Made by a program: the position numbers and the translations under genes | NCBI GenBank assembly: GCA_001950395.1 | Contig: BDLO01000001.1 | Span: 967,979-1,031,978 of the forward strand | From: Coriobacteriaceae bacterium EMTCatB1 | Lineage (GTDB): Bacteria; Actinomycetota; Coriobacteriia; Anaerosomatales; Anaerosomataceae | Direction: 5' to 3' | DNA length: 64,000 bases | Shown: positions 52,685 to 58,471 of the stretch, one piece after another | How the letters are laid out: the number at the start of each line of letters is the position of its first letter | Numbering within the stretch: position 1 is the stretch's first letter | The notes under the pieces: model-generated | Seen by the model: only the letters and a program-made list of their open reading frames with translations | Databases searched by the model: none | Told to the model about the DNA's origin: nothing

Positions 52685-53620
52685 TCACTCCTCGAGGCCG
52701 AGAGCGGCGATCCCCTGCGAGACGCCAGCCGCCGATCCGCGGAGCGCCGCAAGCTCGTCCTCGGTCAGATCGAGCTCCTGCACCTCGAGGACACCGCCCG
52801 CCCCAATCACGCACGGAACCCCGACGCTCACGCCACGCAGGCCGTACTCGCCGTCGAGCACGGCGCAGGCCGGCATCACGCGCCGAGCATCTGACAGCAC
52901 GGCCTCCACCATCGCAGCGACCGAAGCGCCGGGGGCGAAAAACGCGCTCCCGGACTTCAGGAGCGCGACGACGTCGGCCCCGCCGTTCACGGTGCGCCGC
53001 ACGACCTCTTCGATCTGCTCAGCAGCAAGCACGTCGGGAAGCGGCCTGCCGCCGATTGTCGCCAAGCGCACCAGCGGCACCATCGTGTCGCCGTGGGCGC
53101 CGATCACCATCGCGTCGACGTCCGCAACCGGCACGGAGGCCGCCTCCGCGATCGCGTGCGCGAACCGCGCCGAGTCGAGCACGCCGCCCATGCCGAACAC
53201 GCGACCGCGCGGCATCCCAGACGCCTTCCACGCGAGGTACGTCATGACGTCCAGCGGATTGGTCACGCAGATCACGACGGCCGTGGGCGCGACGCGAGAC
53301 ACCTCGGATATCACCGATCGCACGATGTCCCCGTTGACCTTGAGCAGGTCCTCGCGGGTCATGCCGGGCTTTCGCGGCAGACCAGCGGTGATCACCACCA
53401 CGTCGGAGCCCTCGCACGGCTCGTAGGAGTTCGTTCCGACGATCCGCACGTCGAATCCTGCCACGCGGCGAGCGTGCATCATGTCGAGCGCCTTGCCCTG
53501 AGGGATCCCCTCCGCGACATCCACGAGAACGACGTCCGCCGCCTCCCGCAGCGCCAACGAGTACGCGGCGGTCGCGCCTACCTGCCCTGCTCCGACGATG
53601 GTGACCTTGCGACGCGGCAC
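52685..53620 (-). CDS. mdh: Malate dehydrogenase (LDH/MDH family)
   Basis: NAD-dependent oxidation of malate to oxaloacetate. The 311-residue protein has the Rossmann motif GAGQVGATAAYSLA, ITAGLPRKPGMTREDLL with the arginines typical of malate (not lactate) enzymes, TNPLDVMTYLAWK and the catalytic His in IGAHGDTMVP. GTG at 53620 after GAAGGAGAGCCC. It heads an operon with fumarase, consistent with an incomplete or reductive TCA branch. Confidence 0.95.
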   Translation of the reverse strand: MPRRKVTIVGAGQVGATAAYSLALREAADVVLVDVAEGIPQGKALDMMHARRVAGFDVRIVGTNSYEPCEGSDVVVITAGLPRKPGMTREDLLKVNGDIVRSVISEVSRVAPTAVVICVTNPLDVMTYLAWKASGMPRGRVFGMGGVLDSARFAHAIAEAASVPVADVDAMVIGAHGDTMVPLVRLATIGGRPLPDVLAAEQIEEVVRRTVNGGADVVALLKSGSAFFAPGASVAAMVEAVLSDARRVMPACAVLDGEYGLRGVSVGVPCVIGAGGVLEVQELDLTEDELAALRGSAAGVSQGIAALGLEE

Positions 53621-53675
53621 GGGCTCTCCTTCCGTTGTTGCTGCGCGCGGAATCGAGCCGGCTGGCTCAGGGAGG

Positions 53676-53681
53676 ATTCTA
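53676..53681 (-). promoter_or_regulatory. Candidate -10 box (TAGAAT) for the mdh operon
   Basis: TAGAAT on the minus strand, 56 bases before the mdh start. No convincing -35 box is visible at 16-18 bases upstream. The remainder of the 96-base gap to the nitrilase-like gene shows nothing else. Confidence 0.4.
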
Positions 53682-53716
53682 CCATTGCAGCGCGCGCGAC
53701 CGTGCCGCGAGGCGCG

Positions 53717-54301
53717 TTAGGAGAGGTCTGCGAGGTAGTCGACCTCGGGCTTCTCGCCGCGATGACGAGCGAGGCGCTGCCGCAAGATGAGCGGCGGCTC
53801 GGGATCCGGCGCGCTGGCGTCGATAGGTGGCGGCGGGACCGGCACGTCTGCGAGCACCAGGTCTTCCGTGCCAAGCGCCTCGGCGACCACCTCGCCCGCG
53901 ACCACGATCGCGCTGCCTCCGTGGCCGGGAGCCCCGATGTCACCACCTCCGTGCTCCGCGACGACGACGACGCTCGCGACCGACACCGACGCGGCGATGG
54001 CAAGCTCAAGCACGCCTTCCGCCTGAAGCTCCGACTCAGCGCCCGGCATGAGCACCAGAGCGGTCGGATGCGCGCGTCGAGCTTTCGCGAGCTCTGCGGG
54101 GTCGATGGCCGCGTCCCCCTGCAGCACCACGACGTCTCCCATGGAATCCACGCCGTCGAGAAGCGCCTCCTCGCCTCCCACCGGCGCAGCGATGAGCACC
54201 TCGGCGCCCTGCGCAACGGCCCGTGCCCTGAGCTCGGCGAGCGCACGGGCCTGGGCTTCCCGGTCTTGTCGGATAGCAGCCTGCAGCACGGCGACTCTCA
54301 T
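53717..54301 (-). CDS. Nitrilase-superfamily-like protein without the catalytic triad
   Basis: A 194-residue protein whose start MRVAVLQAAIRQDREAQARALAELRARAVAQGAEVLI and end GGSAIVVAGEVVAEALGTEDLVLADVP look like the first and last strands of carbon-nitrogen hydrolases. There is no Cys at all in the protein, so the nucleophile is missing, and the middle of the domain is shortened (family members are about 250-300 residues). It is probably a non-enzymatic paralogue or a diverged protein. The ATG at 54301 follows GAGGAGGTCGTC, a strong ribosome binding site, so it looks expressed. It follows topA by 78 bases. Confidence 0.65.
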   Translation of the reverse strand: MRVAVLQAAIRQDREAQARALAELRARAVAQGAEVLIAAPVGGEEALLDGVDSMGDVVVLQGDAAIDPAELAKARRAHPTALVLMPGAESELQAEGVLELAIAASVSVASVVVVAEHGGGDIGAPGHGGSAIVVAGEVVAEALGTEDLVLADVPVPPPPIDASAPDPEPPLILRQRLARHRGEKPEVDYLADLS

Positions 54302-54379
54302 GACGACCTCCTCGTGAAGCTCTGCGCGCCTGCACTCAAGAGCATGCCCGAAACGGGCGCGCGCTTCACGCTCGGCGCG

Positions 54380-56839
54380 CTACGAGCGCTTCTTCCGCCT
54401 CGACGCCGGCTTGCGCACGGCACGCTCCTGCTTCTGGGGGCACGCCGGGTCCACGCACACGCGCCACGGACCGCGCCTCGTCTGCACGACCACGATGGGC
54501 GCACCGCACTCGCACGTCTCGCCCGTCGCGGAAAGCTCGCCGCTTTGCGGAAGCGGATAGCTCACGCCGCACTCCTCGTAGCGCGTGCACCGTGCGAAGC
54601 GCTTGAGCGTGCGGGACGAGCGCTGCGCGATGATCCGTCCGTCCCGCCCTGCTGCGGCGCACACCGGGCACGCGCCGATGTCGAGCGGCTGCTCTGCGTT
54701 GCTCGGACACGCGGGGTCGATGCAGCGCACCTCCGGCTTGCGCCTCGCCTGTATCACCTTGACCTTGGGAGCGCCGCATACCTCGCACGGCTCTTCGACC
54801 GGCTCGATCTTGCCTGCCGGGAGCGGGTACGTGACGTCGCACTCGGGGTAGCCCGTGCAGCCGGCGAACTGCCCTTTCGTCTTCGGCGACGACCGGACCA
54901 CGAGGTCCTTGCCGCACTTCGGGCACGAGCCGACCCGAGCGTCTTGCAGCGACGCCTCTTTCAGCATGTCGCCCACCTCGGAAGCGTGCTCGAGCAGGTC
55001 CCGCAGCGCCTCGTCGAGCATCTGACGCGAGTGCGCCACGACCGCGTCCTTCTTCCCTTCGCCGTTGGCGATGGCGTCCATCTCGGCTTCGAGCTCTGCC
55101 GTCATGTCCGGCGTGGTGATGCGCTGCGCGAACGCCCCGAGCGCGTGCACGACCGCCCGCCCGAGGGACGTCGGCTCCACGGGATCGCCCGTGACGTACC
55201 CGCGGTCGTACAGCGTCTGGATGATCTCGTGCCGCGTGGCTTTCGTCCCGAGCCCGCGCTTCTCCATCTCCTGGATCAGTGCGCCTTGCGTGAACCGCTT
55301 GGGCGGCTGCGTCTGCTTGCTCTCCGAAGAAGCGCCCTTGAAGCGTACCCTCTCGCCTTCCTCGACGCCGGGCAGGCGCTCGTCCTTCTTCGCTCCGTAC
55401 GGGTAGATCTCCCGGAACCCGGGCTGCACCACGACGTCGCCCTTGGCGAGGAAGCGCTCGCCGCCGACTTCGACGACGAGCTTTGTCGCCTCGATGACAG
55501 CCGGGTCCGAAAGCGTCGCCAAGAAGCGGCGGGCGACCAGGTTGTAGAGCTTCCACTCCTCTGGCGACAGCTTGTCCGGGTCGGCGGGGCCCGTCGGGTG
55601 GATCGGCGGGTGGTCGGTGGCCTCCTTGTTGCCGCGCGTCACCGTGAGCGTGCGCTTCTGAAGAAGCCGCGCGGCGTAGTCCCGGTACACGGGCACCTCG
55701 CGGAGCGCTTTGAGCGTCGCCCTCAGATCGAGGCTTGGCGGGTAGACGGTGTTGTCCACGCGCGGGTACGAGATCAGCCCGTTCATGTACAGCGTCTCGG
55801 CGATGCGCATGGTGCGCGCGGGCGAAAGCCCTTCTGCGGCAGCGGCGGCCTGAAGCGCAGTGGTGTTGAAGGGAGCAGGCGGATTGACGGTTCGGCGCGA
55901 CTTCTCGACGGCAGCGACGACGCCCGAGTCGTGCCCCGCGACCGCCGCGAGCACGCGCGAAGCGTCCTCTTCGGACGAGAAGCGCTCGGTCTCGTGCGTG
56001 GCGCTGAACTCCTCGCCTCGAGCCTCGAACAGCGCCTTGACCACCCAGTAGGTCTCCGGGACGAACGCCTCGCGCTCCATCTCGCGCTCGACCACGAGTC
56101 GAAGCGTCGGGGTCTGCACGCGGCCCACGCTCCGCGGGCGCCCGACGCCCGAGAACTTGACCTTGGTGAGGTAGCGAGTGAGCACCGCGCCCCAGATGAG
56201 GTCGATGTCCTGCCGGGTCTCCCCCGCTGCCGCGAGCGCCTCTGAGATCTCGCCGGGCGCCGAGAATGCGCGCTCGATCTCGTCTTTCGTGATAGCAGAG
56301 AACCGGGCGCGCACCACCGGCACGCGCGGGTTCACGGACTGGACGATCGAACGGGCGTCCGAACCGATGAGCTCGCCTTCGCGATCGTAGTCGGTCGCGA
56401 TGACGACGAGGTCCGCCTGCTTCGCAAGGGACTTCAGCGCCTCCACGATGTCACGCTCGGCGACGCGCTTGCCGACCGGCGACCACACCAGGTACGGAAG
56501 CGACTGCAGCTTCCACACGGATAGGTCGACGCCGTCAGGAAGGTACGGCTTGGTGCGCTTCTGCCACGGCGGCGCAGGAAGCCCGCTCGGCAGGTCGGCT
56601 GGCGTCGCCTTCCCGTCCGGCCACTCTGCGATCCAGCCGCCGTCCCGATGCCGAAGGGCCTGCGGGAAGTCCAGGCCGAGGATGTGGCCCTTGAGCCCGA
56701 TGGCCGCCCACTCCTCGCCGTCGCGTCTGAAGCGGTAGACCGGCACGGCGTGGACCTGCTCAATCTTCGGCTTGCCGGTGGCGAGGATCTCAGCGATGCG
56801 CCGGGCGGCTATGTTCTTCTCTGAGACTATCAGGCGCAT
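54380..56839 (-). CDS. topA: Archaeal-type DNA topoisomerase I (type IA)
   Basis: Relaxes negative supercoils by passing strands through a transient nick. The 819-residue protein has a Toprim domain (MRLIVSEKNIAARRIAEIL, acidic TDYDREGELIG at 149-159) and the catalytic Tyr358 in NGLISYPRVDNT. Both motifs and the unusual long N-terminal insertion are of the archaeal type, unlike the bacterial TopA start. The C-terminus holds four zinc ribbons in two repeated pairs (CPKC/CTGYPEC, CEVC/CIDPAC, CPVC/CTRYEEC, CEC/CVDPAC), ending in a basic tail. A TATACT at 56879-56874 is a likely -10 box. Confidence 0.93.
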   Translation of the reverse strand: MRLIVSEKNIAARRIAEILATGKPKIEQVHAVPVYRFRRDGEEWAAIGLKGHILGLDFPQALRHRDGGWIAEWPDGKATPADLPSGLPAPPWQKRTKPYLPDGVDLSVWKLQSLPYLVWSPVGKRVAERDIVEALKSLAKQADLVVIATDYDREGELIGSDARSIVQSVNPRVPVVRARFSAITKDEIERAFSAPGEISEALAAAGETRQDIDLIWGAVLTRYLTKVKFSGVGRPRSVGRVQTPTLRLVVEREMEREAFVPETYWVVKALFEARGEEFSATHETERFSSEEDASRVLAAVAGHDSGVVAAVEKSRRTVNPPAPFNTTALQAAAAAEGLSPARTMRIAETLYMNGLISYPRVDNTVYPPSLDLRATLKALREVPVYRDYAARLLQKRTLTVTRGNKEATDHPPIHPTGPADPDKLSPEEWKLYNLVARRFLATLSDPAVIEATKLVVEVGGERFLAKGDVVVQPGFREIYPYGAKKDERLPGVEEGERVRFKGASSESKQTQPPKRFTQGALIQEMEKRGLGTKATRHEIIQTLYDRGYVTGDPVEPTSLGRAVVHALGAFAQRITTPDMTAELEAEMDAIANGEGKKDAVVAHSRQMLDEALRDLLEHASEVGDMLKEASLQDARVGSCPKCGKDLVVRSSPKTKGQFAGCTGYPECDVTYPLPAGKIEPVEEPCEVCGAPKVKVIQARRKPEVRCIDPACPSNAEQPLDIGACPVCAAAGRDGRIIAQRSSRTLKRFARCTRYEECGVSYPLPQSGELSATGETCECGAPIVVVQTRRGPWRVCVDPACPQKQERAVRKPASRRKKRS

Positions 56840-56873
56840 GAGCGCGGCTCCCGTGTCGGTGGCGGCTCATGCG

Positions 56874-56879
56874 AGTATA
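56874..56879 (-). promoter_or_regulatory. Candidate -10 box (TATACT) for topA
   Basis: TATACT on the minus strand, about 35 bases before the topA start and within the 65-base gap after the HD protein gene. A TTGACG is present only 7 bases upstream, too near to be its -35 box. Confidence 0.5.
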
Positions 56880-56904
56880 AACGCCGCGTCAAGCGCCGCG
56901 GTGG

Positions 56905-57456
56905 CTACAGGCCGAGCTCCTCAGCGTGTGTTTGCATCGCCGCGAGCGAAAGCGCAAGGAACTCGTCTCGCTCGAGCCCGAGCTCTGCGCACGACGCCAT
57001 CTGCTCGCGATCAGCACCGCGCGCGAACGCCTTCTCCTTCCAGCGCTTCTTCAGGCTCGAGACTTCGACGGCGCGAAGCGACTTGTCTGGGCGCACGAGC
57101 GCCGCAGCGACGATGAAGCCGGTCACAGGATCCGCAGCGTACAACGCCTTGTCCATCAGCGACTCGCGCGGCGCCTTCGCGGCGTGAGCGAGGATCGCAT
57201 GCGCCATCTCGGGATCGATGCGCGCGCCGAGCATCTCGACCGTCACGCGGCCGTGACGCTCGAAGTCCTCGGCAGTCGTCGCGTAGTCAAGGTCGTGCAG
57301 GACGCCCACGACTTCCCACCGGTCCGCGTCGGCGGATGGAATGGCCAGCCGCTCAGCGAGCGCCCGCATGATCCAGCCGACGGCAAGGCAATGGTTCTTG
57401 AGGTTGGCCGCTGGAACGTGTTGCTCGAGCAGCGCAATCGCTTCGTCACGCGTCAC
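56905..57456 (-). CDS. HD-domain phosphohydrolase
   Basis: A 183-residue single HD domain. It has a metal-binding His in NHCLAVGWIMRAL, the HD pair in VLHDLDYATT, a further His in HAILAHAAK and a final Asp in YAADPVTGFIV. Related small proteins hydrolyse nucleotides or phosphate esters, and the substrate is unknown. GTG at 57456, overlapping the hypB end by 11 bases, so it is part of the tat-hyp operon. Three helices of the C-terminal third resemble those in uncharacterised HDIG proteins. Confidence 0.85.
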   Translation of the reverse strand: MTRDEAIALLEQHVPAANLKNHCLAVGWIMRALAERLAIPSADADRWEVVGVLHDLDYATTAEDFERHGRVTVEMLGARIDPEMAHAILAHAAKAPRESLMDKALYAADPVTGFIVAAALVRPDKSLRAVEVSSLKKRWKEKAFARGADREQMASCAELGLERDEFLALSLAAMQTHAEELGL

Positions 57457-58120
57457 GTGAACCGCCCTCCTTCGCCGCCTCGATGCGCTCGGTCAGCCAC
57501 GCGACCCACGCGTCCACGCCCTCCCCGGTCTTCGCCGACATCGGGAAGATCGGAGCCCTGGGATTCAGGCGTCCCACTACCGAGCGGAACTCCTCTTCGT
57601 CGAAGTCGAACACGGAGCGCGTGTCGTACTTGTTGAGGATGACGGCCTGGGAGATCTCGAAGATGCCTGGGTACTTGTACGGCTTGTCGTGGCCCTCGGG
57701 CACCGAGAGGATCATCACTTTCGCGTGCTCGCCCAAGTCGAACTCCGTCGGGCACACGAGGTTGCCGACGTTCTCGACGATCACGAGGTCGAGCTCGTCC
57801 AAGTCGAGCTGGTCGATGGCGCGGCGGATCATCGCAGACTCCAGGTGGCACGCGCCGCCCGTGTTGATCTGCACTGCTGGGATGCCGTGCTCCGCGATCT
57901 TCTCGGCGTCCACCCGCGAAGCGATGTCGCCCTCGATCACCGCGATGCGATACCGGTCGCGGAGCGCTTCGATCGTCGCGAGGATGGTGGTGGTCTTGCC
58001 GGCGCCCGGGCTCGCCATCAAATCGACGACGAAGACGCCCGCCTCCGCAAAGCGCCGGCGGTTCTCCTGCGCGAGCGCGTCGTTGTGCTCGAGGACGTCC
58101 TTGGCGATGTCGATGCGCAC
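57446..58120 (-). CDS. hypB: Hydrogenase nickel-insertion GTPase HypB
   Basis: GTPase that helps load nickel into NiFe hydrogenases (and in some bacteria urease). The 224-residue protein has the P-loop MASPGAGKTTTI, Switch II-type EGDIASRVDAEKI, the nickel-site region INTGGACHLES, ENVGNLVCP and the G4 NKYD motif. It lacks a His-rich N-terminal nickel-store stretch. GTG at 58120, 9 bases after hypA. No hydrogenase structural gene lies in this window. Confidence 0.95.
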   Translation of the reverse strand: MRIDIAKDVLEHNDALAQENRRRFAEAGVFVVDLMASPGAGKTTTILATIEALRDRYRIAVIEGDIASRVDAEKIAEHGIPAVQINTGGACHLESAMIRRAIDQLDLDELDLVIVENVGNLVCPTEFDLGEHAKVMILSVPEGHDKPYKYPGIFEISQAVILNKYDTRSVFDFDEEEFRSVVGRLNPRAPIFPMSAKTGEGVDAWVAWLTERIEAAKEGGSRDA

Positions 58121-58129
58121 GCGGCCTCC

Positions 58130-58471
58130 CTAGTCCACGTCGATGGCGTCGATCCGCAGCTCGCGCCCCTGCACGAGCGTGCTCACGTACGAGCCGCATT
58201 CGGGGCACTTCGGGTCGAAGCGGTCGTGTCGGAACACCGCGCCGCAGTCCGTGCACTGCGAGCGCGCTTCGACGTAGTTGACCACGAGTTCGGCGCCTTC
58301 CGCCATCGTCCCGGTCTTCAGCGCCTCGAACGCGAAGCGCAAGGCATCATCCATCACTTCGGTGAGCTCTCCGATGCTCACCTCTATGCGGTTGATGCGC
58401 GTCGCACCGCTATCGCTCGCCGCGCGGACGGCAGACGAAAGGATCCCGTCGCAGATGCCCATCTCGTGCAC
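58130..58471 (-). CDS. hypA: Hydrogenase nickel-incorporation protein HypA
   Basis: Nickel metallochaperone that passes nickel to HypB/hydrogenase. The 113-residue protein begins MHEMG, where His2 is the nickel ligand, and has a zinc site with SQCTDCGAVF and PKCPECGSY. GTG at 58471, 6 bases after tatC. Works with HypB next to it. Confidence 0.95.
   Translation of the reverse strand: MHEMGICDGILSSAVRAASDSGATRINRIEVSIGELTEVMDDALRFAFEALKTGTMAEGAELVVNYVEARSQCTDCGAVFRHDRFDPKCPECGSYVSTLVQGRELRIDAIDVD

Follow-up and report, generated by a model that had tools for sequence, protein, structure and literature searches.

An archaeal-type Topo III of old descent and wide distribution, with its zinc-ribbon cassette doubled in Coriobacteriia

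The window (the whole stretch of 64,000 nucleotides of Coriobacteriaceae bacterium EMTCatB1 that was analysed) holds a gene for a type IA DNA topoisomerase which, judged by its sequence, is of the archaeal (Topo III) type. Comparison over the class Coriobacteriia and its phylum indicates that the replacement of Topo I by this archaeal-type Topo III is real, old and broadly distributed, and that a doubled zinc-ribbon cassette is specific to the class. It is likely that the enzyme has taken the post that Topo I (TopA) holds in other bacteria. One bacterial member of the archaeal subfamily (Rubrobacter) was already known. A search of the open literature, excluding subscription papers, found no paper on a replacement of Topo I at the scale of a class or phylum.

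Domains, motifs and class of the enzyme

The features of the gene and its surroundings are presented in Table 1. The limits, strand and reading frame given by the sequence-only reading were all correct; the ORF starts with ATG and encodes 819 amino acid residues. In the Pfam search of the protein, the Toprim domain (PF01751), the Topoisom_bac core (PF01131) and the zinc ribbon (PF01396) are all above cut-off, the last (Zn_ribbon_Top1) as a single stretch of residues 637-674, and no helicase family was found among the matches at E <= 0.001. The protein scores 825.5 bits with NF005555/PRK07220 (cut-off 635) and 479 bits with TIGR01057, topA_arch (cut-off 458), while it stays below the cut-offs of TIGR01051, topA_bact (295.6 against 456.4), TIGR01056, topB (283.6 against 515.75), and TIGR01054, reverse gyrase (180.3 against 471.7). 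An assignment to TopA, TopB or reverse gyrase is ruled out by these NCBIfam cut-offs, and for TopA and TopB also by the tree described below.

Table 1. Features of the topoisomerase gene and its neighbourhood, in positions of the window
Feature	Position	Strand	Basis
Archaeal-type (Topo III-type) type IA DNA topoisomerase gene	54380..56839	-	ORF, ATG start, 819 aa; Pfam; NCBIfam
Toprim domain, residues 3-182	56294..56833	-	Pfam PF01751; E7-K8 and D150/D152/E154 inside
Insertion specific to Coriobacteriia, about 44 aa, roughly residues 61-104	56528..56659	-	Alignment; borders approximate
Topoisom_bac core, residues 198-601	55037..56248	-	Pfam PF01131, 426.9 bits
Y358, the inferred catalytic tyrosine, preceding P359	55766..55768	-	ISYPRVDN aligned with homologues
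First two-ribbon cassette U1 (ribbons 1, 2), residues 636-718	54686..54934	-	Cys pattern; U1 clade
Second two-ribbon cassette U2 (ribbons 3, 4), residues 720-804	54428..54682	-	Cys pattern; U2 clade
Short basic C-terminal tail, 19 aa past the last Cys, and stop codon	54380..54439	-	Sequence
HypB-like GTPase gene, upstream	57446..58120	-	Pfam CobW/HypB/UreG
Gene for an HD-domain protein, lying between topA and hypB	56905..57456	-	Pfam PF01966
194-aa ORF adjoining topA, downstream	53717-54301	-	Without Pfam match; kept in nearest relatives
Lactate/malate dehydrogenase-like gene, downstream	52685..53620	-	Pfam

The motifs SEKN, TDYDREGE and ISYPRVDN of the window enzyme are of the archaeal or Topo III kind in the motif table, as had been proposed for its Toprim and tyrosine motifs. 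Topo III is described as differing from bacterial Topo I in two marks, a Lys that follows the first Glu of Toprim and a Pro that follows the catalytic Tyr (PMC10969213). Both are present as E7-K8 and Y358-P359, and residues E7-K8 and D150/D152/E154 occupy invariant columns of the 27-row alignment. The E-K and Y-P pairs were found in 18/18 Coriobacteriia (the window enzyme counted), 25/25 other Actinomycetota, 11/11 archaea and 5/5 TopB rows. Bacterial TopB thus shares the EK and YPR hallmarks, while all seven TopA rows have E-S and Y-M/I and lack both marks; the ES...Y(M/I)R motifs of TopA are absent from the window enzyme.

The AlphaFold2 model of the enzyme, built with the 27-row alignment, has a pLDDT of 89.2 and a pTM of 0.80. 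With Z values of 39.3-39.6 (571-586 residues), human TOP3B, S. solfataricus Topo III and TOP3A are its nearest solved folds; E. coli Topo III comes next at Z 35.2, ahead of E. coli TopA at Z 33.7 (532 residues). In a tree of 81 rows (683 columns, quick method), the window enzyme lies within Coriobacteriia (support 100), and bacterial TopA (14 rows, support 100) and TopB (8 rows, support 99) form clades of their own. A position of the core within ordinary TopA or TopB, named beforehand as the outcome that would speak against an archaeal-type core, was not found. The family scores, tree, motif table and structural matches agree with the earlier claim that the core is archaeal-type and lies outside both bacterial groups. 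The loci used in the 81-row tree, the tree with Sulfolobus described below, the motif table, the Cys count and the ribbon-unit tree were a selection from all loci, made for family spread.

The closest comparison is with archaeal Topo III subfamily II, which includes M. acetivorans Topo III-alpha and in which Rubrobacter xylanophilus TopoI is listed (PMC3202574). The core, the EK and YPR hallmarks, the two-ribbon cassette and a score above the NF005555 cut-off are common to both, and NF005555 and subfamily II presumably describe the same group. Unlike subfamily II, the Coriobacteriia enzymes carry the cassette twice, and most of them have an N-terminal insertion of 44 residues. The sequence-only reading had taken this insertion to be of archaeal type as well. 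An archaeal origin is ruled out, since the insertion is missing in 11/11 archaeal homologues; it is a feature of Coriobacteriia. It is also absent from 25/25 other Actinomycetota and from 5/18 Coriobacteriia in the alignment, and one more of these 18 (L198) has a shorter insertion unlike the others. Within family f1, that of the window, enzymes with and without the typical insertion occur (G000 versus G007, G025 and G013); it is missing from L064 and L058, and L198 with its unlike insertion also belongs here.

The genome of the organism is complete, in one contig of 1,838,614 bases (1.84 Mb). A search of it with PF01131, which was positive in 14/14 control genomes, gave a single type IA match, the window gene. 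The presence of a bacterial topA elsewhere had been left as a point to check, and none was found by this search of the complete genome. The GyrA model gave one match, without a second, so far as these searches reach making GyrA and the window enzyme the only members of their two families found in the genome. Second, weaker GyrA-model matches appear in some TopA-bearing genomes (G185 and G331). In G149, G180 and G287 (L280-L282), the GyrA match consists of two blocks within one open frame of 1241-1276 residues, a pattern as an intein would give.

Duplication of the zinc-ribbon cassette

Downstream of the core, the window enzyme has 16 Cys residues in four ribbons. Ribbons 1 and 2 align with ribbons 3 and 4 at 47% identity with a score of 185, while 2000 shuffles with the Cys residues held fixed gave a mean score of 33 (SD 7.5, maximum 94). 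The resemblance of the two pairs is therefore far beyond chance. The Cys residues were counted in the 40 of 55 proteins whose C-terminus could be anchored, the other 15 being left out. The C-termini of Coriobacteriia contain 13-17 Cys, some having been lost in a subclade (for example, L057, L058 and L064). In 13/14 other Actinomycetota there are 8 Cys in two ribbons, and in 8/8 archaea there are 7. A count of 16 was also found in L175, from family f44.

The ribbon pairs were also compared as separate units in a tree (83 units, 84 columns). The 23 first units form one clade in it (100/99), and its sister group (93/84) is the clade of the 23 second units (100/98). Together they stand against the single units of other Actinomycetota and of archaea. 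The sister position of U1 and U2 points to one duplication of the cassette before the radiation of the class. By this comparison of units, the four ribbons are the tandem duplication of one two-ribbon cassette, which took place once, on the Coriobacteriia stem. The likeness of ribbons 1+2 to ribbons 3+4, and the internal duplication suggested to account for it, are thus borne out by the Cys count, the shuffle test and the unit tree. The second unit of L175 falls outside the Coriobacteriia units, and its cassette was probably duplicated independently.

Many of the related proteins continue beyond the last ribbon. A tail of at least 30 residues with at least 25% K/R occurs in 46/64 Coriobacteriia relatives, 8/43 other Actinomycetota and 3/38 archaea, counted without duplicates, rows shorter than 600 residues and partial loci. 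In this respect the Coriobacteriia relatives resemble the actinobacterial TopA with a lysine-repeat tail (PMC7398561). However, the C-terminal domain of that TopA is described there as having no zinc fingers, while the core and ribbons of the Coriobacteriia enzymes are archaeal-type; the tail of the window enzyme itself, unlike that of the lysine-tailed TopA, is short. Several C-terminal zinc ribbons, as in the window enzyme, are reported for E. coli TopA (PMC10969213); with bacterial Topo I in general the enzyme also shares the type IA fold and, presumably, the post in the cell.

Distribution, inheritance and gene order

NF005555 is above cut-off in 138/149 genomes of the class. TIGR01051 is above cut-off in 5/149, all of family f20, and in the remaining 6/149 neither cut-off is reached. 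Among the 138 genomes with the archaeal type, none has a bacterial TopA above cut-off. In the phylum sample the archaeal type is above cut-off in 135/296 genomes, bacterial TopA in 135/296 and neither in 26/296; since these numbers add up to 296, no genome of the sample is above both cut-offs. Beyond the class, the archaeal type is above cut-off in 25 families. The suggestion that the topoisomerase is part of an archaeal flavour of this one genome is weak in view of a type found in 138/149 class genomes and 25 further families. A review describes Topo I as present in all bacteria (PMC7140829). This statement is contradicted by the lack of bacterial Topo I here and by the archaeal type in nearly all sampled members of the class.

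The bacteria surveyed were Actinomycetota, Bacillota and the control genomes, and the archaea were of one phylum. The archaeal type is above cut-off in 0/199 genomes of Bacillota and in 79/80 genomes of the phylum to which Archaeoglobus belongs, which we take to be Halobacteriota in GTDB. The scan of genome contigs for homologues used short peptide patterns and was not exhaustive. A contig of 242,596 bases filed as viral in IMG/VR carries an archaeal-type topoisomerase gene (L284:3001-5043) with 37% identity to the window protein. In four archaea (G461, G476, G489 and G495), the topoisomerase match is divided into several blocks within open frames of 899-1468 residues, possibly inteins or fusions.

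The exceptions are of several kinds. In family f20, five genomes have TopA (L066-L070), which groups with actinobacterial TopA in the 81-row quick tree (support 97), while G008 and G020, of another genus, have the archaeal type (L194, L195). The TopA of this family is a probable second, later replacement, and the five genomes indicate that the archaeal type is replaceable. The genomes below both cut-offs (6/149 in the class, 26/296 in the phylum sample) have fragments, a TopB type or nothing. Families f35, f58 and f75 account for 14 of these 26; each of 12 genomes searched again (L208-L219) gave one type IA match, and the five placed in the tree all fall with TopB, as do the motifs of the two in the motif table. 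Neither model had a match in G129, G143, G011 and G041 of the class or in G160, G236, G262 and G400 of the phylum sample, and these assemblies, some 95-98% complete, we read as having gaps. A second type IA match beside the archaeal type occurs in most f33 genomes of the phylum sample and in eight class genomes (G008, G034, G036, G070, G076, G100, G102 and G119); some of these second matches may be one gene in pieces on two contigs.

The topoisomerase tree was compared with a species tree of rpoB+gyrA from the same genomes, rooted on one Bacillota genome. Eight of 16 splits are common to the two trees, while 2000 label shuffles gave a mean of 0.25 common splits and a maximum of 4. This supports an old and largely vertical inheritance. 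The other 8/16 splits are not common, and supported conflicts are found on either side. The splits with bootstrap of 90 or more in the gene tree only are G000+G001+G008 (96/86), the same group with G004 (90/83) and G153+G167 (91/61); those with SH-aLRT of 95 or more in the species tree only are G000+G013 (99), G166+G180 (98) and G189+G211+G300 (98). Genomes G000 and G013 both belong to the family of the window (f1) and are yet split, which suggests an exchange or two subtypes inside the class. In the rpoB+gyrA tree (quick method), six TopA-bearing genomes from outside the class are nested among archaeal-type ones (support 96), and the AU test does not reject a single archaeal-type side (p 0.139; 23 rows versus 7). 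We claim one old origin for the archaeal-type enzyme in Actinomycetota, at a node which these sequences leave inexact.

The gene order is also conserved. In 32/39 class loci whose sequence extends far enough, a hypB gene precedes the topoisomerase gene by at most 1.5 kb and has the same strand, as it does in 10/10 further loci, one of which, L056, duplicates the contig of L029. The dehydrogenase gene is found at most 1.5 kb downstream on the same strand in 23/36 class loci. The HD-domain gene is also present in the nearest relatives. Neither hypB nor the dehydrogenase is near the topoisomerase in family f33 (0/19 each), and at the archaeal topoisomerase loci hypB is a neighbour in 0/37 and the dehydrogenase in 0/34. 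The order hypB, (HD), topA, dehydrogenase extends over much of the class (positions 52685-58471 in the window; loci L002-L044). The topoisomerase gene thereby adjoins hydrogenase-maturation genes, and the ORF at 58130-58471 is perhaps hypA.

A recent import from archaea into this lineage, together with other archaeal-flavoured genes of the genome, had been suggested by the sequence-only reading and would fit the identity of about 39-45% to archaeal enzymes. It is very improbable and was rejected because of the presence throughout the class and in 25 further families, the agreement of the gene tree with the species tree and the class-wide gene order, which again counts against it.

The direction of an old transfer is a separate matter. 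In the 81-row tree, Coriobacteriia lie inside an Actinomycetota clade of 43 rows (SH-aLRT 94), which adjoins the archaea, 16 rows in one group with a support of 57; the joint clade of 59 rows has an SH-aLRT of 99 in this quick tree. Each side is again one group in a second tree with outgroups (96 for Actinomycetota and 90 for archaea), and a careful tree built from 19 Actinomycetota genomes and 5 archaea has a single branch (100/100) that divides the two sides. Donor and recipient cannot be read off from the two sides of one branch. The archaea might have taken the gene from an actinobacterial lineage, or both might have kept an ancient Topo III line, and we regard this as somewhat unlikely. 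The opposite is suggested by the second of the trees with outgroups, in which Sulfolobus Topo III was added together with TopA and TopB: it stands apart from the clade that archaea and Actinomycetota form together (support 98), while the second Topo III of Methanosarcina falls inside, as if the line were archaeal. However, this placement is weakened by the very long Sulfolobus branch (3.03), by a row misplaced with respect to the rooting branch and by the sampling of one archaeal phylum apart from Sulfolobus.

Proposed role and its meaning

Type IA topoisomerases of this family nick one strand through a Tyr residue and pass another strand through the gate. In the mechanism proposed here, Y358 would cut one strand of underwound DNA with the assistance of the Toprim acids and Mg2+, and the second strand would go through the gate of the cut strand. 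This would relax the negative supercoils that come from gyrase and transcription, and would unlink the intermediates of replication and recombination. The doubled ribbon cassette, with the lysine-rich tails of many relatives, would hold single-stranded DNA and raise the efficiency of relaxation, the second cassette presumably strengthening the capture of the strand. A Topo III core with a doubled cassette could in this way give a Topo I-like output. With its tail of 19 residues, the window enzyme itself is not covered by the argument from lysine tails. In one study of Sulfolobus Topo III, the C-terminal zinc finger was reportedly essential for decatenation.

The Topo I-like role is inferred from the sole type IA match: as the only such match beside one gyrase, the window enzyme should both relax and decatenate DNA. 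M. acetivorans is reported to have a second Topo III beside Topo III-alpha (PMC3202574), unlike the genome studied here. The same report describes relaxation of negatively supercoiled DNA by the M. acetivorans relative, best near 30 C, and no relaxation by its N-terminal or C-terminal part alone. For S. solfataricus Topo III, poor relaxation and mainly decatenation are reported (PMC8185306), and a Topo I-like output of the window enzyme is therefore not assured.

The window enzyme might accordingly be a plain Topo III, which decatenates DNA and resolves recombination intermediates with a RecQ-type helicase, the supercoils being balanced without a type IA relaxase through the control of gyrase and through nucleoid proteins. 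This is unlikely. It would agree with the E-K and Y-P hallmarks, with TOP3B, Sso Topo III and TOP3A as best structural matches and with the character of the Sulfolobus enzyme as a decatenase. However, the M. acetivorans relative does relax negative supercoils, the additional ribbons have a counterpart in those of E. coli Topo I, and the genome has one GyrA match without a second, while Topo I is described as apparently essential in the absence of Topo IV (PMC7140829).

It is possible, and put forward tentatively, that Topo I was lost at or near the base of Actinomycetota and that archaeal-type Topo III has served since. With the same reserve, the actinomycete-like clade and some members of family f20 would later have changed over to bacterial TopA, and families f35, f58 and f75 to a TopB type alone. 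Coriobacteriia might for their part have restored a Topo I-like apparatus through duplication of the zinc-ribbon cassette, an equally tentative step.

The interest of these results lies in the extent of the archaeal-type replacement and in its consequence. The distribution makes it possible to test whether a Topo III can be the sole type IA enzyme beside gyrase, and what the doubled ribbons add. Inhibitors directed at bacterial TopA may be ineffective against Coriobacteriia of the gut, for example Eggerthellaceae. If the loss at or near the base of Actinomycetota is true, the enzyme that serves a bacterial phylum as core relaxase would be exchangeable between the domains of life.
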